NCBI GenBank assembly: GCA_030840805.1
Contig: JAVEDU010000054.1
Location: forward strand, 62,001 to 126,000
Reading direction: 5' to 3'
Length of the DNA stretch: 64,000 nucleotides
From: Actinomycetota bacterium
GTDB taxonomy: Bacteria > Actinomycetota > Actinomycetes > Mycobacteriales > HKI-0501
Program-made: the position numbers and the translations under genes
Notes under the pieces: model-generated
What the model was told of the DNA's origin: nothing
The model's input: the letters and a program-made list of their open reading frames with translations, nothing else
The model's database searches: none
Part shown: positions 1,250 to 41,024 of the stretch, piece by piece
Position numbering within the stretch: position 1 is the first letter of the stretch
How the letters are laid out: each line of letters opens with the position of its first letter

Positions 1250-1801
1250 GTGCGTGTCGGTTCGGCGTCCCGCTCTCACCTCCGGCCTGCCGCCGTGCTG
1301 TTCGACCGCGACGGCACGCTGGTCGTGGACGTGCCCTACAACGGCGATCCGGCCCGGGTCGTGCCGGTGCCGGGAGCGCGGGCGGCGCTGGACCGTCTCC
1401 GTGCCGCGGGCCTGCGCCTCGGCGTCGTGTCGAACCAGTCCGGGGTCGCGCGGGGGCTGCTCGGGCTCGCCGACGTGCGGGCCGTGAACGCGCGGGTGAA
1501 CGAGCTGCTGGGGCCCTTCGGCGCGTGGCGCTGGTGCCCGCACGGCCCGGACGAGGGCTGCCGGTGCCGGAAGCCGGCACCGGGGCTGGTGCGCGCCGCC
1601 GCCGCCGATCTCGGGGTGACCCCGGCGGACTGTGTCGTCGTGGGCGACATCGGAGCCGACCTCGGCGCCGCCGCGGCGGCGGGCGCGCGCGGCGTCCTGG
1701 TCCCGACGGCCGTCACCCGCCGGACGGAGGTCATCGCGGCCACCGTGGTCGCGCGGGACCTCGGGCACGCGGTCGACCTCATCCTGGCGGGCGCCCGGTG
1801 A
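1250..1801 (+). CDS. gmhB: HAD-IIIA phosphatase, GmhB-like (heptose 1,7-bisphosphate 7-phosphatase)
   Basis: Predicted to remove the 7-phosphate from glycero-manno-heptose 1,7-bisphosphate, the step between the kinase and nucleotidyltransferase activities of the HldE homologue encoded downstream. HAD motif I is LFDRDGT near the N terminus, motif II is VSNQSG, and motif III is VGDIGADLG. A Cys-Pro-His ... Cys-Arg-Cys-Arg-Lys-Pro loop matches the zinc loop typical of GmhB. The 183-aa length fits the family. The GTG at 1250 is chosen because GGAGG lies five bases before it and the HAD motif begins shortly after. The stop overlaps the start of the next gene (GTGA), so it is the first gene of a coupled operon. 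Confidence 0.85.
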   Translation: MRVGSASRSHLRPAAVLFDRDGTLVVDVPYNGDPARVVPVPGARAALDRLRAAGLRLGVVSNQSGVARGLLGLADVRAVNARVNELLGPFGAWRWCPHGPDEGCRCRKPAPGLVRAAAADLGVTPADCVVVGDIGADLGAAAAAGARGVLVPTAVTRRTEVIAATVVARDLGHAVDLILAGAR

Positions 1802-3836: not shown

Positions 3837-5044
3837 AGATCGCCATGGTGTCGGAACACGCGAGCCCCCTCGCGGTGGTCGGCGGGGTGGACGCCGGAGG
3901 GCAGAACCTGCACGTCGCGGAGCTCGCGAAGGCGCTGGCCCGCCGCGGCCACGAGGTCTGCGTGCACACCCGGCAGGACGCGGCGTCCCCGCGCGGAAAG
4001 GTGGAGCTGGTCCCCGGCGTGACGGTCGACCACGTGCCCGCCGGACCGCCGGAACCGCTGCCCAAGGACGAGCTCCTGCCCTATATGGCGGCGTTCGGCG
4101 CGTACCTGACCGAGGCCTGGGCCGTCGCCCGGCCCGAGGTGGTGCACGCGCACTTCTGGATGTCCGGGCTCGCGGCGCTCACCGCCACCCGGGATCGGCC
4201 GGTGCCGGTCGTGCAGACCTTCCACGCGCTCGGGTCGGTGAAGCAGCGGCACCAGGGGGTCAAGGACACCAGCCCGCCGGGGCGGATCCGGCTGGAGCGC
4301 GCCATCGCCCGTTCGGTCGCGAAGGTGGTCGCCACCTGCTCGGAGGAGGTGTTCGAGCTCGCCCGGCTGGGTGTCCAGCGGCGGCAGATGACCGTGGTGC
4401 CGTGCGGGGTCGACCTCGACCAGTTCACCGACCGCGGCCCGGTGGCGCCCCGGACCGACCGCCCCCGGATCGTCAGCGTCGGGCGGCTGGTCGAGCGCAA
4501 GGGGTTCGACGTGCTGATCCGGGCGCTGCGGGCCGTGCCGGGGGCGGAGCTGCTCATCGCCGGTGGCCCGGCCGCACCCGGCCTGGCCGGGGACGCCGAG
4601 GCGTGCCGGCTCCTCGCGCTGGCACAGTGCTGCGGCGTGGCGGACCGGGTGCACCTGCTCGGCGCGGTGAGCCGGGCCGACATGCCCGGGCTGCTGCGCT
4701 CGGCCGACGTGGTCGCCTGCGCGCCCTGGTACGAGCCGTTCGGGATCGTCCCGGTCGAGGCGATGGCCTGTGGCATCCCGGTGGTGGCGACCGCGGTCGG
4801 CGGGCTGACCGACACCGTGATCGACGGGGTCACCGGCATCCTCGTCCCGCCCCGCCGCCCGGACCGGATGGCGGCCGCGCTGCGCACCCTGCTGGCCGAC
4901 CACAGCCTGCAGCTGAACTTCCGGAGCGCGGCGCTGGACCGCGCCCGGTCGCGGTACGCGTGGGACCGGATCGCCGGTGAGACCCATCTCGTGTACCGCG
5001 AGGTCACCGCGTTCCCGGCGGATCGGCTGGGGGTCGCCCGATGA
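3833..5044 (+). CDS. glycosyltransferase family 4
   Basis: A full-length GT4 retaining glycosyltransferase of 403 aa. It has the N-terminal GGVDAGGQNLHVAELAKAL loop found in MshA and sucrose-synthase-like GT4 enzymes, VSVGRLVERKG at the domain junction, and the catalytic E-x7-E motif in EPFGIVPVEAMACG near the C terminus. It resembles MshA of mycothiol synthesis, but its position inside a heptose operon argues for a glycan role. The GTG start overlaps the stop of the previous gene, and its stop overlaps the gmhA-like ATG. Confidence 0.85.
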   Translation: MKIAMVSEHASPLAVVGGVDAGGQNLHVAELAKALARRGHEVCVHTRQDAASPRGKVELVPGVTVDHVPAGPPEPLPKDELLPYMAAFGAYLTEAWAVARPEVVHAHFWMSGLAALTATRDRPVPVVQTFHALGSVKQRHQGVKDTSPPGRIRLERAIARSVAKVVATCSEEVFELARLGVQRRQMTVVPCGVDLDQFTDRGPVAPRTDRPRIVSVGRLVERKGFDVLIRALRAVPGAELLIAGGPAAPGLAGDAEACRLLALAQCCGVADRVHLLGAVSRADMPGLLRSADVVACAPWYEPFGIVPVEAMACGIPVVATAVGGLTDTVIDGVTGILVPPRRPDRMAAALRTLLADHSLQLNFRSAALDRARSRYAWDRIAGETHLVYREVTAFPADRLGVAR

Positions 5045-5673
5045 GTGGGCCGGGCGCCGTCGCGGGGGCGTACGGCCGGCGCCATGTCGAGGCGCTGCGC
5101 CGCGGCCTGGCCGAGCTGCGGACGGAGACCGCGACGCTGGCCACCTGGGGCACCCACCTGGCGGGACTGCTGGCGGACGGCGGGCGGCTGCTCGCCGTCG
5201 GCAACGGCGGCAGCGCCGCGCAGGCCCAGCACCTCACCGCGGAGCTGGTCGGGCGGTACCGGACGGACCGGCCCGCGTACTCGGCGATCGCGCTGCACGC
5301 GGACACCTCGTCGGTCACGGCCCTGGCGAACGACTATGGCGTCGAGTACATGTTCGCCCGCCAGGTGGAGGCCCACGGACGGCCGGGAGACGTGCTGGTC
5401 CTGCTGTCCACCAGCGGGCGCAGCGCGAACCTCCTCGTGGCCGCGGAGACGGCCCGCCGCCGCGGGCTCACCGTCTGGGCCGTCACCGGCGCGGCGCCGA
5501 ACCCACTCGCCGCGCTGGCCGACGCCGCCGTGTGCCTGGGAGTCCCGGAGACCGCGACGGTGCAGGAGCTGCATCTCGTCGCGCTGCACATCCTCTGCGC
5601 GGAGGTGGACCGGGCGCTGGGGGTGGTGGATCTCCGGGACGCGTCCGAGACCGGCGCGGAGCTGGCGGTATGA
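5041..5673 (+). CDS. gmhA: SIS-domain isomerase, GmhA-like (sedoheptulose 7-phosphate isomerase)
   Basis: Predicted to convert sedoheptulose 7-phosphate to glycero-manno-heptose 7-phosphate, the first committed step of heptose synthesis, in the cytoplasm. The 210-aa protein has the GmhA hallmarks: GNGGSAAQAQHLTAELVGRY for the phosphate loop, LLSTSGRSANLL for the SIS phosphosugar site, and a C-terminal helix with ELHLVALHILCAEVD carrying the His/Glu residues used by the family. Length fits. It is stop/start overlapped with both neighbours, which puts isomerase, kinase/nucleotidyltransferase and phosphatase on one transcript. Confidence 0.88.
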   Translation: MSGPGAVAGAYGRRHVEALRRGLAELRTETATLATWGTHLAGLLADGGRLLAVGNGGSAAQAQHLTAELVGRYRTDRPAYSAIALHADTSSVTALANDYGVEYMFARQVEAHGRPGDVLVLLSTSGRSANLLVAAETARRRGLTVWAVTGAAPNPLAALADAAVCLGVPETATVQELHLVALHILCAEVDRALGVVDLRDASETGAELAV

Positions 5674-7091
5674 GGGGGCCGCTGGTCGTCCTCGGCGACG
5701 CGTTCCTCGACCGGGACATCGTCGGCACCTCCGACCGGCTCTGCCCCGACGCCCCGGTGCCGGTGGTCGACGTGCGGACCGAGCTGGACCGCCCCGGTGG
5801 CGCGGCGCTGGCGGCACTGCTGACGCGCGGGTTCGCCGGGTGCGAGGTGGTGCTGGTGACGGCGCTCGGCGACGACCGGGTGGGTGCGCGGGTCGTCGCG
5901 CTGCTCGACGGCGAGGTCCGGGTCGTCCCGGTGCCGCTCGGCGGGCCGACGCCCGAGAAGATCCGCATCAGGGTCGCCGGGCAGTCCCTGCTGCGGGTGG
6001 ACCGGGGCCGGGCGGCCGCCGAGCCAGGCCCGCTGGGCCGGGCGGCGCAGGCGGCGATCCTCGGGGCCGGTGCGGTGCTGGTCGCCGACTACGGCCGGGG
6101 CGTCGCGGCACATCCGCAGGTACGGGAGCTGCTGCGGCAGGTCACCGCCCGCCGGCCGGTCGTCTGGGATCCGCATCCGCGCGGCGCGGTACCGGTGCCC
6201 GGCGCGCGGCTCGTGACCCCCAACGCCCGCGAGGCGGCACAGCTGACGGGTGGCGGGTCCGCGGGCGTGCGGGCGAGGGGTGCCGACCTCGCCGCGCTCG
6301 CGGCAGGTGCGGCCCGGCTGCGTCGCGACTGGGCCGCCACCGCGGTCGCGGTCACCATGGGCGAGGACGGCGCGCTCCTCGTGCTCGGCGAGCCCGAGCC
6401 GCTGGTCGTCCCCGCCCCCGTCGTGCCCGCGGGGAGCGACACCTGCGGTGCCGGTGACGCGTTCGCCGCCGCGGCGCTCGCCGGTCTGGCCGGCGGCGAG
6501 GTGCTGTCCGAGGCGGTGGCCGAGGGAGTGCGGCAGGCCAGCGCGTTCGTCGCGGCGGGAGGTGCGGCGGCGGTCACCGCGGTGCTGCGCGGCCGGCGCG
6601 ACGCGGGCCGCCCGGTTCCCGGCGGTGCCGCCGACATCCCCGCCCTGCTCGCCCGCGTCCGGTCCACCGGCGGCACGGTGGTGGCGACCGGCGGGTGCTT
6701 CGACCTGCTGCATCCGGGCCACATCGCGACCCTGCAGGCGGCCCGCCGGCTCGGCGACTGCCTGGTCGTCTGCCTGAACTCCGACGACTCGGTGCGCCGG
6801 CTCAAGGGCCCGGACCGTCCGATCAGCCCGGAGGGTGACCGTGCCCACGTGCTGTCCGCGGTCACCGGTGTCGACGCGGTCGTGGTCTTCGACGAGGACA
6901 CCCCCGAACGGGTCCTCGCCGAGCTGCGCCCGGACATCTGGGTGAAGGGCGGTGACTACGCCGGGGGAGAGCTCCCGGAGGCCGAGCTCGTGCGCGGCTG
7001 GGGCGGCCAGACGGTGGTCGTCCCGTATCTCGACGGCCGGTCCAGCACCGGTCTCGTCACGGCGGCCCGGCGCGGCCGCCCGACCCCCTGA
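5670..7091 (+). CDS. hldE: bifunctional HldE-like heptose kinase / nucleotidyltransferase
   Basis: Predicted to phosphorylate heptose 7-phosphate at C1 and later transfer a nucleotide (AMP in HldE) to heptose 1-phosphate. The 473-aa protein is a fusion. Residues 1 to about 310 are a PfkB/ribokinase domain ending in the catalytic GAGD at 260-263. Residues about 335-473 are a cytidylyltransferase-like domain with GGCFDLLHPGH, the HxGH motif being at 348-351. The order matches E. coli HldE. The ATG at 5670 overlaps the gmhA stop. Whether the product is ADP- or GDP-heptose cannot be read from the sequence; the fused architecture favours ADP. Confidence 0.87.
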   Translation: MRGPLVVLGDAFLDRDIVGTSDRLCPDAPVPVVDVRTELDRPGGAALAALLTRGFAGCEVVLVTALGDDRVGARVVALLDGEVRVVPVPLGGPTPEKIRIRVAGQSLLRVDRGRAAAEPGPLGRAAQAAILGAGAVLVADYGRGVAAHPQVRELLRQVTARRPVVWDPHPRGAVPVPGARLVTPNAREAAQLTGGGSAGVRARGADLAALAAGAARLRRDWAATAVAVTMGEDGALLVLGEPEPLVVPAPVVPAGSDTCGAGDAFAAAALAGLAGGEVLSEAVAEGVRQASAFVAAGGAAAVTAVLRGRRDAGRPVPGGAADIPALLARVRSTGGTVVATGGCFDLLHPGHIATLQAARRLGDCLVVCLNSDDSVRRLKGPDRPISPEGDRAHVLSAVTGVDAVVVFDEDTPERVLAELRPDIWVKGGDYAGGELPEAELVRGWGGQTVVVPYLDGRSSTGLVTAARRGRPTP

Positions 7092-7105
7092 GGAGAGGAC
7101 CTTCG

Positions 7106-7807
7106 ATGCGCGATCCCGGCACCGTGCTCGTCACCGGCGGCGCGTCCGGACTCGGGGCCGCGGTGGTGGCCGCGGTGGCCCGGGCCGGCGGCCGGCCGCT
7201 GGTACTCGACCTCGCGCCACCCGCCGACATCGGCGGGGTGCCGGTCGACCACGTCCTGGTGGACCTCGCCGACGCCCGGGCGGCCGAGCGGGCGGTCCGC
7301 GAGCTGGTGGACCGGGGTGGTGGCGAGCTGGACGGCGTCCTCACCGCCGCCGGGACGGACCGGTGCGGGGCGCTCGGCGACGTCGACGGCGCCGCCTGGG
7401 ACCGGGTGGTGCGGGTCAACCTCTTCGGCACGGCCGCCGTCGTCCGTGCGGCGCTGCCCTATCTGGAACGGAGCCACGGCACCGTCGTGACGGTGTCGTC
7501 CACCCTCGGCCTGAAGGCGGTCGGCGACGCCACGGCGTACTGCGCCTCGAAGTTCGGCGTGGTGGGCTTCACCCGCGCCCTCGCGGCCGAGACCCGTGGC
7601 CGGGTCGGCGTCACCCTGCTGATCCCGGGCGGCATGCACACGGCGTTCTTCGACGACCGGGACGAGCGGTACAAGCCGCCGCCGGACGCGAAGCTGAACC
7701 GGCCGGAGGACACCGCGGCGGCGGCTCTGTTCGCGCTGACCCAGCCGCCGGGGTGCGAGGTGCGGGAGCTGGTGGTGGCCTCCTCCGAAGAGGGGTCGTG
7801 GCCGTAG
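7106..7807 (+). CDS. short-chain dehydrogenase/reductase of the heptose operon
   Basis: A classical SDR of 233 aa with TGGASGLGAAVV for NAD(P) binding near residue 10 and the catalytic YCASK. It is preceded by GGAGAGG with good spacing and overlaps the next gene by 10 bases, so it belongs to the operon. It is too short, and of the wrong subtype, to be HldD, the extended-SDR epimerase that makes ADP-L-glycero-heptose. It may oxidise or reduce the heptose or the finished sugar; that is inference. No other epimerase is visible in the window. Confidence 0.8.
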   Translation: MRDPGTVLVTGGASGLGAAVVAAVARAGGRPLVLDLAPPADIGGVPVDHVLVDLADARAAERAVRELVDRGGGELDGVLTAAGTDRCGALGDVDGAAWDRVVRVNLFGTAAVVRAALPYLERSHGTVVTVSSTLGLKAVGDATAYCASKFGVVGFTRALAAETRGRVGVTLLIPGGMHTAFFDDRDERYKPPPDAKLNRPEDTAAAALFALTQPPGCEVRELVVASSEEGSWP

Positions 7808-8760
7808 CCGTCCTGCTGGTGCTGCGGGCGCTCGGACTCGGGGATCTGCTCACCGGCGTCCCCGCGCTGCGCGGCCTCCGGCGGGCCTACCCGGATCACC
7901 GGCTCCTGCTCGCCACCCCGCCGGAGCTGGCCGGTCTCGCGCTCGCCACCGGCGCGGTCGACCAGGTGGTGCCCGCGCGCGGCCTCGCCCCGCTCACCGG
8001 ACCGGCCGGGCCGGACGTCGCGGTGAACCTGCACGGGCGCGGGCCGGAGAGCCACCGACTGCTCCGGGCGCTCCGGCCGCGGCGGCTGGTGGCCTTCCGC
8101 TCCGCGGAGGCGGGTCACGCCGAGGGGCCGGCCTGGCGTCCGGGGGAGTACGAGGTCGCCCGCTGGTGCCGGATGCTGGCCGCCCACGGCATCCCGTCCG
8201 ATCCGGCCGACCTCGCGTTGCCGCCTCCGCCCACCACGCGCCCCGGCCACGTGGTCGTCCACCCCGGCGCCGCGCATCCCCGGCGGCGCTGGCCGGCCGA
8301 GCGGTTCGCCGCGGTGGCGCGGGGGCTGGCGGAGGCCGGTGGGGACGTGGTCGTCACCGGCTCCGCCGCCGAGGAGGAGCTGGCCGGGCGGGTCGCCGGG
8401 GCGGCGGACCTGCCGGCGGACGCCGTGCTGGCGGGGCGGACCGATGCCGGTGAGCTCGCCGGGATCGTCGCGGGGGCCCGGCTGGTCGTCTGCGGCGACA
8501 CGGGCGTGGCGCACCTGGCATCCGCGTTCGGGACGCCCTCGGTGCTCCTGTTCGGGCCGGTCTCCCCGGCCGAATGGGGCCCACCGCCCGGCCGGCCCGC
8601 CCACGTGGTGCTGTGGCACGGGCCGGGGACGGACGACGGCACCGGAGCGGTGGACCCGGCACTACGGACGATCACCGTGGCCGAGGTGCTCGAGGCGGCG
8701 GCGGGGCTACTCGGCGGCCGGACTCAGCCGGCCGCCCCGTCCATGCCCACGGCGCGCTGA
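7798..8760 (+). CDS. glycosyltransferase family 9, second copy
   Basis: A second heptosyltransferase-like GT9 (320 aa) closing the operon. It begins with LLVLRALGLGDLLTGVPAL, the classic GT9 N terminus that holds the catalytic-loop region, and carries VVVHPGAAHPRRRWP and CGDTGVAHLASAFGTPSVLL in the donor domain. It is closer to canonical GT9 than the copy at 1798. The GTG at 7798 overlaps the SDR gene by 10 bases. Its last 37 bases overlap the convergent STAS gene, so transcription from the two sides must collide or end here. Confidence 0.83.
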   Translation: MAVAVLLVLRALGLGDLLTGVPALRGLRRAYPDHRLLLATPPELAGLALATGAVDQVVPARGLAPLTGPAGPDVAVNLHGRGPESHRLLRALRPRRLVAFRSAEAGHAEGPAWRPGEYEVARWCRMLAAHGIPSDPADLALPPPPTTRPGHVVVHPGAAHPRRRWPAERFAAVARGLAEAGGDVVVTGSAAEEELAGRVAGAADLPADAVLAGRTDAGELAGIVAGARLVVCGDTGVAHLASAFGTPSVLLFGPVSPAEWGPPPGRPAHVVLWHGPGTDDGTGAVDPALRTITVAEVLEAAAGLLGGRTQPAAPSMPTAR

Positions 8761-9185
8761 CCCGGAACGACGACCCGGACGCCGTCGATGCGGGGCGAGC
8801 GGCACTCGCAGGTGGCAGCGGAGCCGGCCGGGGCGTTCTCGATCGGGAACAGCGGCGTGAGCTCCGAGATCCGGAGGACCCACCGGACCGCGGCGCTGGG
8901 CGCGACGAGCCGCAGCGTGTGACCGGTCGCCTGGACCTGCTCCTGGACCCGGACGAGGAAGTCCAGGCCGGTGGAGTCGAGGAAGGTCACGTCGTGGAGG
9001 CAGATCGCCACGTCGGACGCGGTGCTGTGGGAGAGGAAGGAGAACATCGCGTCGAGGTTGTCCTCCAGCGCGATGTCCACCTCACCCACGAACGCGAGCC
9101 GATGGGGATGCGGGGTGGCGCAGCACGACACGGAGCCCCACGGGGGCAGGGTCGAACGTGGGCTGGGCAGGGGCAGAGTCTCCAT
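8724..9185 (-). CDS. STAS-domain anti-sigma factor antagonist
   Basis: STAS anti-anti-sigma factors bind a serine-kinase anti-sigma factor in their unphosphorylated form and so free the sigma factor. This 153-aa protein has the STAS core, with FVGEVDIALEDNLDA and the conserved phosphorylation-loop sequence FLDSTGLDFLV, plus about 30 N-terminal and 30 C-terminal residues outside the core. The ATG at 9185 is preferred over one at 9236 because GGAGG sits five bases upstream. A stress-type sigma gene starts 490 bases away on the other strand. No anti-sigma kinase (HATPase) gene is nearby, so the partner must be encoded elsewhere. Confidence 0.83.
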   Translation of the reverse strand: METLPLPSPRSTLPPWGSVSCCATPHPHRLAFVGEVDIALEDNLDAMFSFLSHSTASDVAICLHDVTFLDSTGLDFLVRVQEQVQATGHTLRLVAPSAAVRWVLRISELTPLFPIENAPAGSAATCECRSPRIDGVRVVVPGQRAVGMDGAAG

Positions 9186-9676
9186 GGGGGCCTCCGTGCT
9201 CTGACGGACGGGGCCCACCGCAGGGTTCCCCATCACGCGAAGTCAGGTGCCACCGCTGGGGACTCAACGGCGCGGATCCGCGGCATCGCGAAATCCGTTC
9301 TCCTCTGAATAGACCCGTCCCGTCCGATAGTCAACTGTCCGGCGTCCGACCACCGGAGGTGTCTGCGGGTGCCGCCCCCTGCGCACCCCGCCGTTGTGGC
9401 CCGGAACACGTGTGGTCACGCGATCGGCTCGACATGCGAGGGGTCGGCGCCCGTGCCACCATCGCTTCGGCACGGTGCTGGCGGCACTACCCCCGCCCTC
9501 CGCGCCCGAGGTGAACCGTTCCGGCGCTCGAGCAGAGGGCGTCGGGACGTCCCGGCCGTCAGCCGGGGCGTCGGCACGGCCGCTCCCGCCGACGCCTGGC
9601 CGGTCACCGCAGTGACACCTCCTGCCGCGGCAGTGGACCGCTCGCCGTCGGCGCACGACCAGCGAAGGAGCCGTCC
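9186..9676. other. gene-free divergent region between the STAS and sigma factor genes
   Basis: I see no gene in these 491 bases. They hold a candidate leftward promoter at 9306-9334 and a 7-bp inverted repeat CCGTGCC/GGCACGG (9451-9457 and 9469-9475) that could form a hairpin in the sigma factor leader. GAAGGAG at 9662-9668 is the sigma gene's ribosome binding site. I could not find a convincing GTTT/GGGTA-type promoter that would suggest autoregulation. Confidence 0.5.
9306..9334 (-). promoter_or_regulatory. candidate housekeeping promoter for the STAS gene
   Basis: On the minus strand TTGACT (9334-9329) is followed after exactly 17 bases by TATTCA (9311-9306). The -35 match is good and the -10 match is partial, lacking the final T. 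Transcription would start near 9299, leaving a leader of about 115 bases before the ATG at 9185. It is the most AT-rich part of the region. Read from the sequence only. Confidence 0.4.
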
Positions 9677-10603
9677 GTGACCGCTTCCCTTCTCGACACC
9701 GCTGCACCCTGGGACACCGCCGCACAGGCCGCCGAGGTGCCGGTCCCGAACGACGCCGCCACCCTCGCCCGTGATGCCACGGTCATCCCGCTCGACCGGA
9801 TCACCGTCACGGTCGCCGAGGGCACCGAGGTGGACGAGGCGCCGCAGCGACGTTCCGACCGGGCCACCTACACGCTGCTGTCGACGATGGCGTACCACAC
9901 CGACGAGCGGGAGCGGCAGCGCGCCCGGCTGGAGCTGATCGAGTTCCACCTCCCGCTGGCCCGCTACTTCGCCCGCCGGTTCCGCAACCGCGGCGAGCCC
10001 TACGAGGACCTGGTACAGGTCGCCACCGTCGGCCTGATCAAGTCGATCGACGGGTTCGACTTCTCCCGCGGCGTGGAGTTCTCCAGCTACGCGATGCCGA
10101 CGATCGTCGGCGAGCTGAAGCGGCACTTCCGTGACAAGGGCTGGAGCGTGCGGGTTCCGCGCCGGCTCCAGGAGCTGAAGATCGAGATCGCCGGTGCGAC
10201 GACCCGGCTCACCCAGCAGCTCGGCCGGTCCCCGACGGTCCGCGACCTGTCCACCGCGCTCGGCATCACCGAGGAGGAGGTGCTGGAGAGCCTGGAGGCG
10301 TCCAACGCCTACTCGGCGCTGTCGATCTACGCGCCGGTCGGCGCCGACGAACAGGCCCCGTGCGTCGCCGACATGCTCGGCGAGGTCGACGCGGACCTGG
10401 AGAAGGTCGAGAACCGGGAGTCGCTGCGACCGCTCCTCGCGCACCTGCCGGTACGGGAGCAGCGGATCCTCGCCATGCGCTTCTTCGGCAACATGACCCA
10501 GACGCAGATCGCCGACGAGATCGGGGTCTCGCAGATGCACGTGTCCCGCCTGCTGTCCCGGTCGCTGTCGGTCTTGCGCGCCCAGCTGCTGGTGGAGGAC
10601 TGA
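9677..10603 (+). CDS. RNA polymerase sigma factor, SigB/SigF/SigG type
   Basis: An alternative group 3 sigma factor of 308 aa directing stress or developmental transcription. Region 2 is clear (PYEDLVQVATVGLIKSIDGF, then GVEFSSYAMPTIVGELKRHF), followed by region 3 (GRSPTVRDLSTALGI) and a region 4 helix-turn-helix (TQIADEIGVSQMHVSRLLSR). It carries about 50 more N-terminal residues than usual. The GTG start is fixed by GAAGGAG six bases upstream. The gene directly abuts the LLM oxidoreductase (TGA then ATG). With the STAS gene on the other side it suggests partner-switching control, but the anti-sigma factor is missing. Confidence 0.9.
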   Translation: MTASLLDTAAPWDTAAQAAEVPVPNDAATLARDATVIPLDRITVTVAEGTEVDEAPQRRSDRATYTLLSTMAYHTDERERQRARLELIEFHLPLARYFARRFRNRGEPYEDLVQVATVGLIKSIDGFDFSRGVEFSSYAMPTIVGELKRHFRDKGWSVRVPRRLQELKIEIAGATTRLTQQLGRSPTVRDLSTALGITEEEVLESLEASNAYSALSIYAPVGADEQAPCVADMLGEVDADLEKVENRESLRPLLAHLPVREQRILAMRFFGNMTQTQIADEIGVSQMHVSRLLSRSLSVLRAQLLVED

Positions 10604-11560
10604 ATGCGGATCGGGTACTTCCTCTCCTGCGAGGAGTTCGGCCCGCGCCAGCTCGTGCAGCAGGCCGAGTGGGCCGAGCGGGCGGGCTTCGAGGGGCTGT
10701 GGATCTCCGACCACTACCACCACTGGAACGACGCCCAGGGCCAGAGCGCGTTCGTGTGGTCGGTGATCGGCGCGCTGTCGGCCCGTACCGCCCTGCCGGT
10801 GACGACGGCGGTGACCTGCCCGACCGTCCGTATCCACCCCGCCGTCGTCGCGCAGGCGACCGCGACCAGTGCGGTGCTGCTCAGCGGGCGCTTCACCTTC
10901 GGTGTCGGCAGCGGGGAGGCGCTGAACGAGCACATCCTCGGCGACGCGTGGCCGCCCGCCGACATCCGCCTCGACATGCTGGAGGAGGCGGTCGCGGTGA
11001 TCCGGGAGCTGTGGGGCGGCGAGAACGTCACCCACAGCGGCACGTACTACGAGGTGCAGAACGCCCGGATCTACACCCGTCCGGAGCTGCCACCGCCGGT
11101 GTACATCTCCGCCTTCGGCCCCAAGGCCGCGGCGCTCGCCGGCCGGATCGGCGACGGCTTCGTCTGCACGAAGCCCGATGCCGAGCTCGTGGGGATCTTC
11201 CGCGACGGTGGCGGCGGTACCCGCCCGGCGCAGGCGGGGTACAAGGTCTGCGCCGGGCCGGACGCCGCCGCGGCCCGCCGTACCGCGCACGGCCTGTGGG
11301 CGAACGAACAGCTGCCGGGCGAGCTCGCCCAGGTGCTGCCGACCCCCCGGCATTTCGAGCAGGCCTCGACGCTGGTGACCGAGGAGATGATCGGCGCGGC
11401 GCTGGTGTGCGGCAACGACGTGGACGCCCATGTCGAGCAGTTCCGGCAGTACCGCGACGCCGGGTACGACGAGGTGTACATCAACCAGATCGGACCCGAC
11501 CAGGAGGCGTTCTTCGCGTTCTACGCGGAGCAGGTGCTGCCCCAGCTCCGCAAGCTCTAG
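10604..11560 (+). CDS. F420-type LLM-class oxidoreductase, glucose-6-phosphate-dehydrogenase-like subfamily
   Basis: A 318-aa TIM-barrel flavin/F420-dependent enzyme. The start RIGYFLSCEEFGPRQLVQQA, the metal-free barrel motif LWISDHYHHWNDAQGQS, GVGSGEALNEHILG and the C-terminal NQIGPDQEAFFAFY are characteristic of the subfamily that includes F420-dependent glucose-6-phosphate dehydrogenase homologues. The substrate is not deducible. The ATG follows the sigma factor stop with no gap, so the two genes are co-transcribed and probably translationally coupled. A role in stress redox metabolism is inferred from that linkage only. Confidence 0.85.
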   Translation: MRIGYFLSCEEFGPRQLVQQAEWAERAGFEGLWISDHYHHWNDAQGQSAFVWSVIGALSARTALPVTTAVTCPTVRIHPAVVAQATATSAVLLSGRFTFGVGSGEALNEHILGDAWPPADIRLDMLEEAVAVIRELWGGENVTHSGTYYEVQNARIYTRPELPPPVYISAFGPKAAALAGRIGDGFVCTKPDAELVGIFRDGGGGTRPAQAGYKVCAGPDAAAARRTAHGLWANEQLPGELAQVLPTPRHFEQASTLVTEEMIGAALVCGNDVDAHVEQFRQYRDAGYDEVYINQIGPDQEAFFAFYAEQVLPQLRKL

Positions 11561-11569
11561 GAGCCTGTT

Positions 11570-11851
11570 CTAGAAGCCCAGTCGGCTCTGCAGCTCCGGC
11601 ACGAACTCCTCGTCCTCGGCGGCCACCTCGTCGAGATCGATCTGGTCCGCCAGCTGCCCGGGCGGCCGCTCGTCCAGCAGCAGGGCGACCGCCTCCCGGA
11701 CCACCTCCTCCGCCGGGGCGTCGGGTGCGTCGAGACCGGTCAGGAACCGTTCGGACGCCACGACCGACACCCGGGTGACGGCGGCGCCGTCGGCCACCTC
11801 GACGGTGAACTCCCCGCCGTCGGACGGCCGGACCACGATGTCGAGGGCCAC
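11570..11851 (-). CDS. hypothetical protein, 93 aa
   Basis: Unrecognised small acidic protein. The GTG at 11851 has GGAGG four bases upstream. The sequence starts with a short beta-rich segment (ALDIVVRPSDGGEFTVEVAD) and ends in an acidic helical tail (LDEVAAEDEEFVPELQSRLG). It has no Cys, membrane segment or signal peptide. It lies 11 bases after the alpha/beta hydrolase gene in the same operon, so the two may work together. It faces the LLM oxidoreductase gene; their stop codons are 9 bases apart without a visible terminator. Confidence 0.6.
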   Translation of the reverse strand: MALDIVVRPSDGGEFTVEVADGAAVTRVSVVASERFLTGLDAPDAPAEEVVREAVALLLDERPPGQLADQIDLDEVAAEDEEFVPELQSRLGF

Positions 11852-11862
11852 GGGTCCTCCGC

Positions 11863-12579
11863 TCAGGTGCCGTGCGCCGGGTCGAGCCGTGCCGTCAGCC
11901 ACGCGCCCGCGAGCGGTGCCACCTGCTCCACCCCGACGGCGTCGTTCACCAGGTCGGCGGCGCCGGAGACGACCCGGAGGGCGGCCGGTCCGACCCCGGC
12001 GACATGGTGGAGCTCCCGCAGCTCGCGGTCGTGCTCCGCGACGAGGAACAGAACCGGGACCGGCAGGTCGGCGAGCAGCTCCGCGGCGAGATCGGGTCGG
12101 CCGTCGCGGCAGACGACCGCGTCGACCCGCGCCGGTCGGGGCGGCCGGGGGCCGCCGTTCGGGCGCGGCGACCCGGCGAGCAGGACCCCGGCGTGCAGCG
12201 CGGCCGCCGCGGCCGTCCCGGTCGCCAGCACCCCCACCGGCAGCGCGGCCACCTCGACCTCCATCCGGGCCACCCGGTCGAGGACCGCGGCGAGGCGTTC
12301 GGTGAGGAGGGCGACGTCGTGCCGCGCCCTGGCGGCGCCGGCGTCCCACTGGTCCTCGTCGGAGGCGAGCAGGTCGGTGAGCAGGGTTGCCAGCCCCTGG
12401 CGGTTCAGCCCGGCCGCCAGCGCCTGGTGGCGCGGGTTCAACCGTGCCCCACTGCTGGCGTGCGCGAGCACGGTCAGGCCGTGGACCGGCCCGCGGCCGA
12501 TCGGCCAGGCCAGGTCCCCGAACAGCGTCGTGCCGGGACTCGGGATCGTCACGGTTCGCGTGGCATGCCGGGTGATCAT
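11863..12579 (-). CDS. alpha/beta hydrolase (dienelactone-hydrolase-like) lacking the catalytic Ser and His
   Basis: The fold is recognisable: an N-terminal beta region, LTVLAHASSGAR for the oxyanion side, VDAVVCRDGRPDLA and VPVLFLVAEHD holding the acid (Asp184), and a C-terminal VSGAADLVNDAVG. Relatives have G-A-S-T-G at the nucleophile elbow and G-A-T-H-L at the end. Here these read L-A-T-G-T (Thr at 120) and G-A-A-D-L (Asp at 209). Nucleophile and base are thus both replaced, and a hydrolase role is doubtful. The ATG has GGGGAGGAACCG in front. Divergent from the carbamoyltransferase gene, 90 bases away. Confidence 0.72.
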   Translation of the reverse strand: MITRHATRTVTIPSPGTTLFGDLAWPIGRGPVHGLTVLAHASSGARLNPRHQALAAGLNRQGLATLLTDLLASDEDQWDAGAARARHDVALLTERLAAVLDRVARMEVEVAALPVGVLATGTAAAAALHAGVLLAGSPRPNGGPRPPRPARVDAVVCRDGRPDLAAELLADLPVPVLFLVAEHDRELRELHHVAGVGPAALRVVSGAADLVNDAVGVEQVAPLAGAWLTARLDPAHGT

Positions 12580-12669: not shown

Positions 12670-14292
12670 ATGCGTGTTCTCGGGATCAACGCCGTCTTCC
12701 ACGACCCCGCGGCGGCCCTCGTCGTGGACGGCCGGATCGTCGCCGCCGCGGAGGAGGAACGGTTCAGCCGCCGCAAGCACGGCAAGCGCCCGGTGCCGTT
12801 CTCGGCGTGGGAGCTGCCGGAGCTGGCCGCGGCCTGGTGCCTCGGCCGGGCCGGGCTGGCACCGGCGGACCTCGATGCGGTCGCGTACTCGTTCGATCCC
12901 GGCCTCTGCCGTCCCGCCGGGGAGCTGGGTCTCGCGGACCCGTGGGACTGGCTCCGGCAGGAGTTCGCCGCGCGGGCGCCGCAGTTCCTCGCCGCCGCGT
13001 TGCCGGGACTCGACCCGGCCGTGGTGCGGTTCGTGCCGCATCACGTCGCGCATGCGGCCTCCGCCGGGCTCGCGATCACCGAGGACTGCGCCGTCCTGGT
13101 GCTCGACGGTCGCGGCGAGGCACGCAGCCACCTCGCCGGGCGGTACCGGGGCGGCGTGCTGGAGGTCCTCGCCGGCCAGGAGCTGCCCCATTCGCTCGGG
13201 CTGCTGTACGAGGACCTCACCGAGCACCTGGGCTTCCTGCGCTCCTCCGACGAGTACAAGGTCATGGCGATGGCCTCGTACGGGGAGCCGCGGTTCCTCG
13301 GCGCACTGCGGGAGGCGGTCCGCGTCACGCCGGAGGGCGGGTTCGTGGTCGACCCGCCGGACTTCGGGGCGTGCGCCAAGCGGCTGGGCCGTGGCGACGC
13401 GTGGACCGAGGACCACGCGGATCTCGCCGCGAGCGTGCAGCGCCGCCTGGAGGAGGTGCTGGTGGCGCTGGCCCGCTGGACGTACGACGCGGCGGGCGGA
13501 CCGGCGACGCTGGCGATGGCGGGCGGGGTGGCGCTGAACTGCGTGGCGAACTCGCGGATCGCCGCCGAGACGGCGTTCGACCGGGTGTGGGTGCAGCCCG
13601 CGGCCGGGGACGCCGGGACCGCGCTCGGTGCGGCCCTGCACGTCGTCGCCGAGCGCGACGCCCGCCCGGCGCCGATGGCGGGCGCGGACCTGGGCCGGGA
13701 CTTCACCGACGCGGAGATCGAGAGCGTGCTGCGGACCGCGCGGCTGCCGTACCGCCGGCCGCCGTCGATCGCCGCGGCGGCGGCCGAGGTGCTCGCCGCG
13801 GACGGCATCGTCGCGTGGTTCCAGGGCCGGAGCGAGTACGGGCCGCGGGCGCTGGGGCACCGCTCGCTGCTGGCGCATCCCGGCCGGGCCGGGAACCTGG
13901 AGCGGATCAACGACGTGAAGGGCCGCGAGCAGTTCCGGCCGGTGGCGCCGATGGTGCTCGCCTCCCGTGCGGCGGAGATCTTCCGCGGTCCGCTGCCGAG
14001 TCCGTACATGCTGTTCGTCCACGAGGTCGCCGCGGAGTGGCGGGACCGGATCCCGGCCGTGGTGCACGTCGACGGCACGGCCCGCATCCAGACCGTCGAG
14101 GACGGCGCGGTGCCGCTGGGCGACCTGCTCCGGGAGTTCGACGCCCGGACGGGGTTGCCGGTGGTGGTGAACACCTCCCTCAACACGGCCGGCCGGCCGA
14201 TGGTGGACGACCCGCGCGACGCGCTGGAGCTGTTCGGGTCGGCGCCCGTGGACCTGCTCGCGATCGGGCCGTTCGCGGTGGATCGCGGATGA
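12670..14292 (+). CDS. carbamoyltransferase, NodU/CmcH family
   Basis: O-carbamoyltransferases of this family move the carbamoyl group of carbamoyl phosphate, via carbamoyl-AMP, onto a sugar or antibiotic hydroxyl. The 540-aa protein has the Kae1-like N-terminal domain (LGINAVFHDPAAALV, then EEERFSRRKHGK, and MAGGVALNCVANSRI) and the YrdC-like C-terminal domain (GPRALGHRSLLAHPG, FRPVAPMVLAS, VVNTSLNTAGRPMVDDP). Length fits. A TAGCCC box six bases before the ATG suggests a leaderless transcript. It is coupled to two GT2 genes and probably carbamoylates a glycan. Confidence 0.9.
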   Translation: MRVLGINAVFHDPAAALVVDGRIVAAAEEERFSRRKHGKRPVPFSAWELPELAAAWCLGRAGLAPADLDAVAYSFDPGLCRPAGELGLADPWDWLRQEFAARAPQFLAAALPGLDPAVVRFVPHHVAHAASAGLAITEDCAVLVLDGRGEARSHLAGRYRGGVLEVLAGQELPHSLGLLYEDLTEHLGFLRSSDEYKVMAMASYGEPRFLGALREAVRVTPEGGFVVDPPDFGACAKRLGRGDAWTEDHADLAASVQRRLEEVLVALARWTYDAAGGPATLAMAGGVALNCVANSRIAAETAFDRVWVQPAAGDAGTALGAALHVVAERDARPAPMAGADLGRDFTDAEIESVLRTARLPYRRPPSIAAAAAEVLAADGIVAWFQGRSEYGPRALGHRSLLAHPGRAGNLERINDVKGREQFRPVAPMVLASRAAEIFRGPLPSPYMLFVHEVAAEWRDRIPAVVHVDGTARIQTVEDGAVPLGDLLREFDARTGLPVVVNTSLNTAGRPMVDDPRDALELFGSAPVDLLAIGPFAVDRG

Positions 14293-15299
14293 TCGTCTCG
14301 GTGGTCGTACCGACGGTGGGACGGGCGTCGCTGGACGGGCTCCTCGCGGCGCTCGGGGAGGGGGGACCCACCGAGGTGCTGCTGGTGGACGACCGGCGGG
14401 ACGCGACCCGGCCGCTGGGGCCCACGGTGCCGCCGTCGCTCGCCGGCCGGGTGTCGGTGGTGCGCGGTCCGGGCGCCGGACCGGCCGCCGCCCGGAACGC
14501 CGGCTGGCGGGCCGCCCGCGGGGAGTGGGTCGCGTTCCTGGACGACGACGTGGTGCCCGCCCCGGGGTGGTGGGCGCTGCTGGCCGCCGATCTCCGCGTA
14601 CCGCCGGAGGTGGCCGGGGTACAGGGGCGGATCGTCGTCCCGCTTCCGGCCGGCCGGCAGCCGACCGACTGGGAACGGTGCACGGCCGGCCTCGGCGGCG
14701 CGCGCTGGGCCACCGCGGACATGGCGTACCGGCGCTCGGTGCTCGCGGCGGTGGGCGGCTTCGACGAGCGGTTCCCCCGGGCGTACCGCGAGGACGCGGA
14801 CCTGGCGGTGCGGGTCCGGGCGGCGGGACATCGGCTCGCCGTGGGGGAGCGGGTGGTGCGGCACCCGGTCCGTCCAGAGGGCCGCTGGGTGAGCCTGCGG
14901 ACCCAGCGCGGCAACGCCGACGACGCGCTGCTCCGCCGCCTGTACGGCCCCGGCTGGCGCGGGCTCGCCGGGGTGCCGCCGGGGCGCCGCCCCCGCAACG
15001 TGGCCGTCACCGCCGCCGCGCTGGCCGCGGTCGTGGCGGCGGGAGGTGCGGCGGCGGCCCCGACGGCGCGGGCCCGGCGGCGGTGGCGTTCCGTGGCGAT
15101 CGGGGCGGCGGGCCTCGCGGTGGCGGGGGTGGCGGAGTTCGGGTGGGCGCGGATCGCGCCGGGGCCCCGGACCCGCGAGGAGGTGCTGACGATGGCCGCG
15201 ACGAGCGTGCTGATCCCGCCGCTCGCGACCGCGCACTGGGTGCGCGGCTGGCTGGCCCACCGGAACGCCCCGCCGTGGTCCCCGCGGGCGACCGCGTGA
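14289..15299 (+). CDS. glycosyltransferase family 2, membrane-anchored
   Basis: A 336-aa GT-A glycosyltransferase. It starts with SVVVPTVGRASLDGLL, has the donor-binding AAARNAGWRAARGEWVAFLDDDV with the DDD metal motif near residue 82, and a second acidic motif YREDADLAVRVRAAGH. The C-terminal 95 residues hold two or three hydrophobic helices that would anchor it in the membrane. The ATG overlaps the carbamoyltransferase stop, and its own stop overlaps the next gene. The donor sugar is unknown; the context points to a surface or secreted glycan. Confidence 0.85.
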   Translation: MIVSVVVPTVGRASLDGLLAALGEGGPTEVLLVDDRRDATRPLGPTVPPSLAGRVSVVRGPGAGPAAARNAGWRAARGEWVAFLDDDVVPAPGWWALLAADLRVPPEVAGVQGRIVVPLPAGRQPTDWERCTAGLGGARWATADMAYRRSVLAAVGGFDERFPRAYREDADLAVRVRAAGHRLAVGERVVRHPVRPEGRWVSLRTQRGNADDALLRRLYGPGWRGLAGVPPGRRPRNVAVTAAALAAVVAAGGAAAAPTARARRRWRSVAIGAAGLAVAGVAEFGWARIAPGPRTREEVLTMAATSVLIPPLATAHWVRGWLAHRNAPPWSPRATA

Positions 15300-16126
15300 C
15301 CTCCGCCGTCACGGTCGTCGTCGCCACCCGCGACCGCCGGACCGAGCTGCTCGGCTCGCTGGCCCACCATCCGCCACCCGTGATCGTGGTGGACAACGGG
15401 TCGCGGGACGGCACGCCCGAGGCGGTGGCGGCGGCGTTCCCGGACGTCGAGGTGCTGCGGCTGCCCGGCAACCGGGGCGCCGCGGCGCGGAATGCGGGCG
15501 CGGACCGGGCCCGGACGCGCTATCTGGCCTTCGCGGACGACGACTCGTACTGGGAGGGCTCCTCGCTGGCGCGCGCGGCGGCCGTCCTGGATGCGGCGCC
15601 CGGCACGGCGCTGCTGTCCGCCCGGGTGCTGGTGGGGCGGGAAGGCCGGTTGGACCCCATCTCGGTCGAGATGGCCCGCGCTCCGCTCGGCACCCCGGCC
15701 GGGGCGCCCGGCCCGGCGATCCTCGGCTTCCTCGCCTGCGCGGTGGTCGTGCGGCGGGACGCGTTCCTGGCCGCCGGGGGGTTCTCGCCGCTGCTGCACG
15801 TGTACGGCGAGGAGGCGCTGCTGGCGATGGACCTCGCCGCCGCCGGCTGGTCGCTGTCCTATGTGGAGGAGCTGGCCGTGCGCCATCTGCCGTCCACCAC
15901 GGCCCGGAACCCGGCCGCCCGCCGCCGCCGGGAGGCCCGCAACCGGGTGCTGACCGCGCTGCTCCGGCGGCCGATGGCGCACGCGGGGCGGACCGTGTGG
16001 GCGGAGCTCGGCGACCGGGACCGGCGGCGCGGCGCGCTCGGCGCGCTGGCGTCGCTGCCGGCGGTGCTGCGCGACCGGACCCTCCTGCCGCCCGCCGTCG
16101 AGGCCGACCTCCGCGCGCTGGAGTAG
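15296..16126 (+). CDS. glycosyltransferase family 2
   Basis: A second GT2 enzyme, 276 aa and soluble. Visible motifs are VTVVVATRDRRTELL, VVDNGSRDGT, RGAAARNAGADRARTRYLAF and the metal-binding DDDS near residue 81. A downstream EEALLAMDLAAAGW corresponds to the catalytic ED region. The GTG start overlaps the previous stop, so the carbamoyltransferase and both GT2 genes form one transcript. The operon ends just before a 61-bp palindrome. Confidence 0.83.
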   Translation: MTSAVTVVVATRDRRTELLGSLAHHPPPVIVVDNGSRDGTPEAVAAAFPDVEVLRLPGNRGAAARNAGADRARTRYLAFADDDSYWEGSSLARAAAVLDAAPGTALLSARVLVGREGRLDPISVEMARAPLGTPAGAPGPAILGFLACAVVVRRDAFLAAGGFSPLLHVYGEEALLAMDLAAAGWSLSYVEELAVRHLPSTTARNPAARRRREARNRVLTALLRRPMAHAGRTVWAELGDRDRRRGALGALASLPAVLRDRTLLPPAVEADLRALE

Positions 16127-16276: not shown

Positions 16277-17308
16277 GTGGAGTACCGCACCCTCGGCCGC
16301 AGCGGCTGTGCCGTCTCGGCGTTGGCGCTCGGCACGATGACGTTCGGCACCGAGACCGCCGAGGCCGGGTCGCATGCTCAGCTGGACCGGTTCGTCGAGG
16401 CGGGCGGCACGTTCGTCGACACGGCCGACGTGTACACCCGCGGCGCCGCCGAGGAGATCGTCGGCCGCTGGCTGGCGAAGCGCCCGGAGCGACGTGACTC
16501 GATCGTGCTCGCCACCAAGGGCCGGTTTCCGACGGGGGCGGGGCCCAACGACCTCGGGCTGTCGCGGCGCCACCTGTCCGCGGCGCTGGACGACTCGCTC
16601 CGCCGGCTCGGCGTCGAGGCGGTCGACCTGTACCAGGTGCACGCCTGGGACCCGCTGACCCCGCTGGAGGAGACGCTGCGCTTCCTCGACGACGCGGTGC
16701 GGTGGGGGAAGATCCGGTACGCCGGGCTGTCCAACTACACCGGCTGGCAGGTGCAGAAGGCGGTGGACCTCGCCCACCACCGGGGCTGGGCCCCACCGGT
16801 GACCCTGCAGCCGCAGTACAACCTGCTGGCCCGCGAGATCGAGTGGGAGATCGTGCCCGCCTGCCTGTCCGCGGGCCTGGGGGTGCTGCCGTGGTCCCCG
16901 CTCGGCGGTGGCTGGCTCACCGGCAAGTACCGGCGGGACGAGCGACCCACCGGCGCCACCCGGCTCGGCGAGGACCCGAACCGCGGCGTGGAGGCGTACA
17001 ACCGGCGCGGCCGCACCGAGCGCACCTGGGACGTGCTGGACGCGGTCCGGGCCGTAGCGGAGCGGCGCGGGGTCTCGATGGCCCAGGTCGCCCTCGCCTG
17101 GCTGGCCGACCGGCCGGGCGTCTCGTCGGTCATCCTCGGCGCCCGCACGCTCGAGCAGCTGGACGACAACCTCGCCGCGGCCGGGCTGCACCTCACGGCG
17201 GAGGAGACCGCGATGCTCGACACGGTGAGCGACCCCGGTGTGGCCGACTACCCGTACGGCGGGCCGGGGGCCGAGCAGCGGAGCCGGAACATCCAGGGCG
17301 GCCGGTGA
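16277..17308 (+). CDS. aldo/keto reductase
   Basis: NADPH-dependent carbonyl reductase of 343 aa, TIM barrel. The catalytic tetrad is visible: Asp and Tyr in VDTADVYTRG, Lys in LATKGRF and His in YQVHAWD. The NADP site is represented by PWSPLGGGWLTGKY and VSSVILGARTLEQL near the C terminus. Length and order fit the YajO/Tas-like branch. The GTG at 16277 follows GGGAGGAGG with good spacing. Its stop overlaps the hexosaminidase gene (GTGA), an unusual pairing with no obvious functional link. Substrate unknown. Confidence 0.87.
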   Translation: MEYRTLGRSGCAVSALALGTMTFGTETAEAGSHAQLDRFVEAGGTFVDTADVYTRGAAEEIVGRWLAKRPERRDSIVLATKGRFPTGAGPNDLGLSRRHLSAALDDSLRRLGVEAVDLYQVHAWDPLTPLEETLRFLDDAVRWGKIRYAGLSNYTGWQVQKAVDLAHHRGWAPPVTLQPQYNLLAREIEWEIVPACLSAGLGVLPWSPLGGGWLTGKYRRDERPTGATRLGEDPNRGVEAYNRRGRTERTWDVLDAVRAVAERRGVSMAQVALAWLADRPGVSSVILGARTLEQLDDNLAAAGLHLTAEETAMLDTVSDPGVADYPYGGPGAEQRSRNIQGGR

Positions 17309-18960
17309 GCGGGCTCTCGTGGCGTGCGGGTGCCGCAGCGATCACCGGGCTGGTCCTCGCCGTCACCGTGGCCGTCGAGCGGGCCGGTGACGCGGAGGGC
17401 CGGGCGCCCCGGACCGAGGCGCCGGCCGTGGCCGCCGCCGCGCCCCGGATCGTGCCCGCCCCCGTATCGCTGCAACGGCGGCCGGGCCCCGCGTTCACCC
17501 TCACGCCGCAGACCCGGCTCGTGGTCCGCGACCGGCGCGCGACCGGGGTCGCCGAGCTGACGGCGGTGCTCCTCCGCCGCTCGACCGGCTACCCCGTCCC
17601 GGTGACGGACGGCGCCTCGTACGGCGGCCACGACGTGCTGTTCGCGCTGGACGGCCCGGCGTCCCTCGGCGACGAGGGGTACACCCTCGCCGTGCACGGC
17701 CGGGGCGTGCGGTTGACCGCGCACGCCGCCGAGGGGCTGTTCCGCGGCGTGCAGACCCTGCGTCAGCTCCTGCCCGGCCGGATCGAGAGCGCCACCGTGC
17801 GGCCCGGCCCGTGGGCGGCGCCGGCCGTGGCGATCACCGACCGGCCGCGCTTCGCCTGGCGCGGCGCGATGCTCGACGTGGCCCGGCACTTCTACGGCGT
17901 GGACGACGTCAAGCGGTACCTCGACCTGGCGGCGCTGTACAAGGTGAACGTCCTGCACCTGCACCTGACCGACGACCAGGGCTGGCGGCTGGAGATCGAG
18001 AAGTGGCCGCGGCTGACCACCGTGGGCGGGCGCACCGAGGTGGGCGGCGGCAGGGGCGGGTACTACACCCAGGAGCAGTACACCGAGATCGTCCGGTACG
18101 CCGCGGCGCGGTACGTGACCGTCGTCCCGGAGATCGACATCCCGGGCCACACGAACGCGGCCCTCACCGCGTATCCCGAACTGACCTGTGACGGCACCGC
18201 GCCGCCGGTCCACACCGGCATCGACGTGGGCTTCAGCTCGCTCTGCGTCCGGGCGGGCGTCACGTACCGCTTCCTCGACGACGTGATCCGCGAGGTCGCC
18301 GCGCTGACCCCGGGCAGGTACCTCCACGTCGGCGGCGACGAGGCGTACGACACGAGCCGCGCGGACTACAAGGCGTTCATGGCGCACGCCCGCCAGGTGG
18401 TGCGCGGGCACGGCAAGCGGCTCGTCGGCTGGACCCAGGTGGCGACCACGCCACAGGATCCGGACTCGCTGGCGCAGTACTACCACGCGGCCCACGGGGA
18501 CGACCCGCGGACGAAATGGGCCCACGCGGCGGCCGACCAGCACATGAAGCTGATCATGTCGCCGGCCGCTCGGGCGTACCTGGACATGAAGTACACGGCG
18601 GCGGACCGGCTGGGCACGGACTGGGCGGGGCTGGTCGACACCCGGACGTCCTACGACTGGGACCCGGTCACCTTCATCGCCGGACTCTCCCCGGGAGATG
18701 TCCACGGCGTCGAGGCGGCGCTGTGGACCGAGACCGCCGCCTCGATGGCGGAGGTCGAGTACCTGGCCTACCCGCGGCTCGCCGGGGTCGCCGAGCGGGG
18801 CTGGTCGCCGGCCACGGGGCGCTCCTGGGCGGACTACGCGCCGCGGCTGGCCGCGCAGGGTCCACGGTGGACGGTGCTGGGGGTGCGGTTCCACCGGGAC
18901 CCGGCGGTGCCGTGGCCGGCCGGGACCGGCGGGGAGACGACGGCGCCGAGCGGAGGGTGA
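17305..18960 (+). CDS. secreted beta-N-acetylhexosaminidase, glycoside hydrolase family 20
   Basis: Cleaves terminal beta-N-acetylglucosamine or galactosamine, e.g. from chitin oligomers or glycans. The 551-aa protein starts with a hydrophobic segment at residues 8-22 that could be a signal peptide or anchor. A GH20b beta domain follows (about 48-180), then the catalytic barrel with HLHLTDDQGWRLEIEKWPRL and the catalytic Asp-Glu pair at 345-346 in HVGGDEAY. WTQV and a C-terminal Trp-rich part complete the site. Translationally coupled to the aldo/keto reductase. The activity call is firm; export is likely. Confidence 0.9.
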   Translation: MSGLSWRAGAAAITGLVLAVTVAVERAGDAEGRAPRTEAPAVAAAAPRIVPAPVSLQRRPGPAFTLTPQTRLVVRDRRATGVAELTAVLLRRSTGYPVPVTDGASYGGHDVLFALDGPASLGDEGYTLAVHGRGVRLTAHAAEGLFRGVQTLRQLLPGRIESATVRPGPWAAPAVAITDRPRFAWRGAMLDVARHFYGVDDVKRYLDLAALYKVNVLHLHLTDDQGWRLEIEKWPRLTTVGGRTEVGGGRGGYYTQEQYTEIVRYAAARYVTVVPEIDIPGHTNAALTAYPELTCDGTAPPVHTGIDVGFSSLCVRAGVTYRFLDDVIREVAALTPGRYLHVGGDEAYDTSRADYKAFMAHARQVVRGHGKRLVGWTQVATTPQDPDSLAQYYHAAHGDDPRTKWAHAAADQHMKLIMSPAARAYLDMKYTAADRLGTDWAGLVDTRTSYDWDPVTFIAGLSPGDVHGVEAALWTETAASMAEVEYLAYPRLAGVAERGWSPATGRSWADYAPRLAAQGPRWTVLGVRFHRDPAVPWPAGTGGETTAPSGG

Positions 18961-40958: not shown

Positions 40959-40993
40959 CCCCGGGCTCTCTGTGCGGCGTTCGGTCGCTTTTG

Positions 40994-41024
40994 ATCCTAG
41001 CGTGTTGACTTCTGCTCACCGCAA
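40994..41024 (-). promoter_or_regulatory. candidate promoter for the ROK regulator gene
   Basis: On the minus strand TTGCGG (41024-41019) is followed after 19 bases by TAGGAT (40999-40994). The spacing is slightly long. It overlaps the rightward promoter of the sugar operon, so one bound regulator could block both. Confidence 0.35.

Follow-up and report, generated by a model that had tools for sequence, protein, structure and literature searches.

The closest described system to the locus considered here is the cwg ("cell wall glycan") operon of Streptomyces coelicolor, a set of 12 genes (SCO6179 to SCO6190) in which cwgH is annotated as a phosphoheptose isomerase and cwgI as a bifunctional synthase/transferase (PMC5839063). 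The operon has one promoter, which is partly sigmaE dependent and is induced by vancomycin (PMC6767563). The present analysis concerns a 64,000-nucleotide stretch of contig JAVEDU010000054.1 of an Actinomycetota bacterium (GCA_030840805.1), the whole of which is referred to as the window, and two groups of genes on its forward (+) strand: an eight-gene ADP-heptose/GT9 operon (positions 1295 to 8760) and, 3,910 bp downstream, a carbamoyltransferase-GT2 group (12670 to 16126). The carbamoyltransferase (12670 to 14292) is termed Cbm, and the two GT2 glycosyltransferases are termed GT2a (14289 to 15299) and GT2b (15275 to 16126). This kind of locus is already known, as the cwg operon, and its arrangement in the window is split. 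With a probability of about 0.78, we consider it a rearranged copy of cwg that makes one O-carbamoylated, heptose-containing and probably xylose-containing envelope glycan.

Carbamoylated heptose has a precedent in the lipopolysaccharide (LPS) core of Pseudomonas, in which HepII bears a 7-O-carbamoyl group assigned to WapO (PA5005) (PMC8005017). The Pseudomonas cluster likewise combines heptosyltransferases with a carbamoyltransferase for a heptose-containing oligosaccharide (PMC8005017), but Pseudomonas is Gram negative, its oligosaccharide is anchored through lipid A/Kdo and contains L,D-heptose, and the likeness drawn here is one of function. This precedent makes a carbamoyl-heptose plausible for cwg rather than demonstrating it. 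At the level of the enzyme, Cbm shares its Kae1-like plus YrdC-like architecture and its metal ligands with TobZ, NovN, and GdmN, which belong to antibiotic clusters, whereas Cbm lies in a glycan operon context.

Identity as a split cwg cluster

The match to cwg was made through a Streptomyces violaceorubidus locus with the same 12 genes (L082), standing in for S. coelicolor. At this locus the published cwg sigmaE promoter recurs with 2 mismatches in 29 positions (0 expected in shuffles) and ends 147 bp before cwgA, which is the published distance; like SCO6178, a neighboring deacetylase gene is oriented divergently. Since gene order, the divergent deacetylase, and the position of the promoter all agree, the Streptomyces cluster is cwg, and it follows from gene order that SCO6180 (cwgB) is a carbamoyltransferase.

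The window holds counterparts of 10 of the 12 cwg genes (cwgB to cwgJ plus one cwgK/L-type GT2) with internal order kept within each half, and sequence comparison places both gene groups as orthologous to one ancestral cluster of this content. Unlike the S. coelicolor operon, the cluster is split, one terminal GT2 has moved beside GT2a, an extra short-chain dehydrogenase (SDR) gene is present, and cwgA lies elsewhere. The second terminal GT2 was not found within the window. The cwgA orthologue (58%) is on another contig of the host genome (G000:C78); cwgA is a homologue of UDP-glucuronate decarboxylase, i.e., UDP-xylose synthase (human UXS1, E = 2.6e-103). The two groups are separated by the 3,910 bp noted above and five unrelated genes and are not contiguous as in cwg; the locus is therefore named a split cwg cluster rather than a cwg operon. 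The split arrangement is also present in a cultured relative, Planosporangium mesophilum (L070). An initial annotation, made from the letters of the window, had placed a carbamoyltransferase and two coupled GT2 genes on the same strand 3.9 kb past a heptose operon. Our own gene calling and Pfam searches bear out this arrangement. The reading of both groups as one pathway in the initial annotation is supported as well, but the known cwg operon was not recognized there.

Conservation and co-occurrence

Three samples were compared: 150 genomes of the host's order, 80 named loci, and 246 genomes of the phylum. Cbm orthologues were found in 63 of the 150 genomes of the order (65 to 75% identity) and in the 80 named loci (70 to 77% identity), which include Streptomyces, Nocardioides, Nonomuraea, and Blastococcus among others; paralogues were at most 48% identical and thus clearly set apart. 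GT2a follows Cbm in 62 of the 69 named loci with enough sequence. This recurrence, across the order and the named loci, indicates that the grouping around Cbm is not due to chance. HldE (heptose-7-phosphate kinase plus heptose-1-phosphate adenylyltransferase) or GmhA, a sedoheptulose-7-phosphate isomerase homologue, was present in 50 of the 59 named loci whose sequence extends 8 kb or more downstream of Cbm.

In most of the named relatives the two groups are a single uninterrupted operon, an arrangement seen in Streptomyces and many other actinobacteria. Most Streptomyces loci have the 12-gene order cwgA-Cbm-GT2a-HAD-GT9-GT-GT4-GmhA-HldE-GT9-GT2-GT2. Gene order differs between families (Planomonospora, Nocardioides, Actinomadura, and Saccharothrix), which speaks against the simple inheritance of one arrangement.

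The initial annotation had held that independent occurrence of the two groups in most relatives would speak against a joint product. Instead, HldE was present in 60 of the 63 Cbm-positive genomes of the order versus 11 of the 87 Cbm-negative genomes (Fisher p = 1.6e-26, uncorrected for kinship). Two of the three exceptions are fragmented assemblies (G008 and G116), and in the third (G037) the cluster is located at the edge of a contig. Co-occurrence extends to unlinked genes: in 12 of 14 genomes of one family (f16), Cbm is on another contig than HldE and GT2a, with all three present, and this separation does not reflect assembly fragmentation, because a genome of four contigs (G139) shows the same split. 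Likewise, HldE matches were found in all 11 named genomes that were followed up, including all nine without HldE or GmhA at the Cbm locus; seven of the matches covered almost the entire length at 57 to 60% identity, and the rest were weaker or partial. In the phylum sample, HldE was present in 17 of 25 Cbm-positive and 2 of 221 Cbm-negative genomes at one cutoff. A looser search gave split, partial, or weaker HldE matches in six of the eight remaining Cbm genomes, but it covered the 25 Cbm-positive genomes only, and the resulting 23 of 25 is not directly comparable with 2 of 221. The only clear-cut exception in this sample is G348, which is described below.

In f16-family genomes (locus L128) and in named Blastococcus loci, Cbm is separated from the heptose genes. 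Cbm is followed by a DUF4383 gene in L128 and is preceded in L111 and L112 by a conserved gene of ∼580 amino acids.

The dependence is mostly one-way: the heptose operon exists without carbamoylation, and the reverse is seldom seen. Micromonospora-like genomes (g16) contain a second, duplicated eight-gene heptose operon without Cbm or GT2a (L129, L133, L135, L137 to L141, L147, and L148), and seven of those sampled hold only this Cbm-free operon. A tree of seven proteins sets the duplication inside the Micromonospora-like lineage, and it is therefore a later, lineage-specific event. In the same tree the window branches outside the clade that contains both operon types, and the possibility that the window operon is of the Cbm-free type was rejected.

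Genes of the two groups

Cbm (12670 to 14292, + strand; cwgB counterpart) is a full-length class III O-carbamoyltransferase of 540 amino acids with both domains of the class, Carbam_trans_N (PF02543; 164 bits) and Carbam_trans_C (PF16861; 205 bits), and its relatives of solved structure in the PDB are NovN, TobZ, and GdmN. Metal ligands H124, H128, D146, and D314 are invariant in 81 sequences; R393, K417, R419, R423, and N501 are invariant or near-invariant; and H11, the probable base, is conserved save for one gap. The conserved ligands agree with those described for GdmN (PMC9633730), the correspondence to H133, H137, D156, and D333 of GdmN being read from motif context. Cbm ends after its second domain and hence lacks a dimerization domain of the GdmN type. 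Homology to NodU is at the family level: Cbm scored 198.8 bits against NF041651, far under the NodU cutoff of 1000, and NodU membership was rejected. None of the neighbors of Cbm was identified as a Nod-factor gene. A role in antiphage defense was also considered, and PADLOC models gave no match for the five proteins tested.

GT2a (14289 to 15299, + strand; PF00535, 59 bits) is the cwgC counterpart. Its hydrophobic C-terminal segment, with a hydropathy peak of 2.05 at residue 238, is consistent with membrane association. GT2b (15275 to 16126, + strand; PF00535, 63 bits) is a counterpart of cwgK/cwgL and is 45 to 53% identical to both GT2 genes that end the Streptomyces cwg cluster. GT2a and GT2b overlap their upstream genes by 4 and 25 bp, respectively, in our gene calls and are therefore apparently translationally coupled. 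Aldo/keto reductase and GH20 beta-hexosaminidase genes (16277 to 18960), mutually overlapping and on the same strand, lie directly 3′ of GT2b; this pair is not conserved among carbamoyltransferase loci.

All eight genes of the heptose operon are on the + strand. The first (1295 to 1801; cwgD counterpart) encodes a HAD-IIIA phosphatase resembling heptose-1,7-bisphosphate 7-phosphatase (GmhB); it passes the HAD-SF-IIIA cutoff, scores 110.6 bits against the heptose bisphosphatase model NF006506 (under the cutoff of 178), and is 57 to 72% identical to its counterparts in Cbm loci. Its real start may lie ∼45 bp further upstream. There follow a GT9 heptosyltransferase-like gene (1798 to 2832; cwgE counterpart; PF01075, 79 bits), which is conserved in Cbm loci; a GT4-like glycosyltransferase of the GT-B fold (2829 to 3836; cwgF counterpart; PF00534); and a GT4 glycosyltransferase resembling MshA and sucrose-phosphate synthase (3833 to 5044; cwgG counterpart; PF00534/PF13439; PDB 6kih and 3c48). 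The last of these scored 244.9 bits against TIGR03449, under the cutoff of 462.5. The idea that an MshA-like GT4 hints at an inositol acceptor was dropped, since the top solved-structure match is a protein of the sucrose-phosphate-synthase type.

GmhA (5041 to 5673; cwgH counterpart) matches SIS_2 at 92 bits and TIGR00441 at 165 bits, under the cutoff of 209. HldE (5670 to 7091; cwgI counterpart) exceeds the cutoff of TIGR02199 (186 bits), matches NF008454 over its full length (273 bits), and is the sole copy found in the host genome. The SDR gene (7106 to 7807; PF00106, 123 bits) is common in non-Streptomyces clusters and absent from Streptomyces cwg. The operon ends with a second GT9 heptosyltransferase-like gene (7798 to 8760; cwgJ counterpart; PF01075, 91 bits; TIGR02193, 68.8 bits, below cutoff). 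The ADP-heptose set of GmhA, HldE, and a GmhB-type phosphatase is thus complete. The heptose-1-phosphate adenylyltransferase model is passed; the matches of the kinase, the isomerase, and the phosphatase to heptose models are under the respective equivalog cutoffs.

The gap between the groups (8724 to 12579) is filled by regulatory and unrelated genes, as the initial annotation had stated, and we identify these as STAS (− strand), sigma factor (+), luciferase-like monooxygenase (+), and two short (−) genes. Because STAS and both short genes (o94 and u238) had no match in the named Cbm loci and the monooxygenase and sigma factor had only occasional ones, all five fall outside the conserved set. 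Neither short gene (11863 to 12579 and 11570 to 11851, both −) had a Pfam or NCBIfam match; the former resembles an alpha/beta hydrolase in its sequence. Farther along the window, positions 39675 to 48940 contain an ordinary sugar/polyol uptake and catabolism cluster with a ROK regulator, a TIM-barrel isomerase, an ATP-binding cassette sugar transporter, and Gfo/Idh/MocA dehydrogenases.

Proposed pathway and alternatives

GmhA, HldE, and the HAD phosphatase would convert sedoheptulose-7-phosphate to ADP-D-glycero-D-manno-heptose, and the unlinked cwgA orthologue would supply UDP-xylose. The GT4 and GT2 enzymes may then assemble an oligosaccharide, for which the carrier is probably membrane bound, and both GT9 enzymes would add heptose. 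Cbm is predicted to use carbamoyl phosphate and ATP to form carbamoyl-AMP and then to O-carbamoylate a sugar hydroxyl of the glycan. Carbamoylation probably comes late, as a decoration, given that heptose operons occur in the absence of Cbm and the reverse is almost never found. An envelope glycan that takes part in the cell wall stress response, as in S. coelicolor, is the probable product. Every cwg gene was upregulated when argR was mutated, by factors of 1.3 to 4.3 (PMC5839063). ArgR also regulates genes for arginine and pyrimidines, and carbamoyl phosphate is common to both pathways. A tie between ArgR control and carbamoyl phosphate use by cwg is speculation.

Several observations weigh against this reading. 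One genome assembled in three contigs (G348) keeps only cwgA-Cbm-GT2a (L127; G348:C1:6194000-6213000), followed by unrelated DUF6766 and flavin mononucleotide reductase genes. L127 is a naturally truncated cwg operon; no HldE or GmhA was found in the genome at E 1e-15, and Cbm can therefore outlast the heptose part. Conversely, 11 genomes of the order (HldE positive, Cbm negative) hold the heptose operon but no Cbm. Among the genes of the core cluster, none was identified as a flippase, polymerase, or initiating transferase. The strict sigmaE pattern AACC-N14-17-CGTCT has no match in the window and so lends no support to co-regulation of the two halves in this organism. A related strict scan upstream of 79 orthologous loci matched only six and was uninformative. 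We know of no chemistry for the cwg glycan, and no heptose/carbamoyl glycan described from Streptomyces was found in the open-licence literature. The linkage of the two groups stands on the continuous operon of relatives and on co-occurrence; of the single carbamoylated heptose glycoconjugate that the initial annotation envisaged, the carbamoylated sugar and the glycan itself remain inferred. A carbamoylated glycan with heptose and probably xylose is a well-founded prediction and not a result.

The carbamoyl group might instead be carried by a residue other than heptose (for instance, xylose or whichever sugar GT2a adds); the operon would then consist of two modules, cwgA-Cbm-GT2a on one side and the heptose genes on the other, that still contribute to one glycan. 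Cbm is tied most closely to GT2a and, in Streptomyces, to cwgA, and exactly these three genes are retained in G348; together, these facts make a non-heptose acceptor quite possible, if somewhat short of an even chance. Four Saccharothrix/Actinokineospora loci (L057, L061, L081, and L099), in which cwgA, Cbm, GT2a, GT9, and UDP-glucose dehydrogenase are joined and HldE and the other heptose genes lie elsewhere, point the same way, and they support UDP-glucuronate/UDP-xylose as a donor of the pathway. Against a non-heptose acceptor stand the near-universal co-occurrence with HldE, including the 12 f16-family genomes with Cbm on a separate contig, and the carbamate on heptose assigned to WapO in Pseudomonas (PMC8005017).

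It is improbable that the cluster is decaying, its halves inherited together but no longer cooperating in the host lineage. None of the tested parts was found in two other genomes of the family, and in the host the cluster is split, cwgA is unlinked, and one terminal GT2 was not seen; nevertheless, every gene has an uninterrupted reading frame and a strong GC bias at third codon positions, and the catalytic residues of Cbm are intact. That the Cbm group serves a separate small molecule by antibiotic-like tailoring, as the gap with its unrelated genes and the homology to the tailoring enzymes TobZ, NovN, and GdmN might suggest, is highly improbable, given orthologues of 65 to 77% identity inside or beside the heptose operon across many families, no tailoring-type biosynthetic cluster found adjoining (the next genes are the aldo/keto reductase and GH20 genes), and co-occurrence, unlinked cases included, on which accidental proximity was rejected.

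Implications

A joint carbamoylated heptose glycan invites a broader and more tentative idea, namely, that monoderm actinobacteria may make an O-carbamoylated heptose oligosaccharide resembling the LPS inner core, on a membrane carrier, as part of the defense against cell wall antibiotics; it would be the Gram-positive equivalent of carbamoyl-heptose in Pseudomonas. Reading the cluster as ADP-heptose plus UDP-xylose plus O-carbamoylation provides a concrete chemical prediction that is testable by mass spectrometry in laboratory Streptomyces. The system reaches across many actinobacterial families, and throughout them the carbamoyl step is nearly always dependent on the heptose step.

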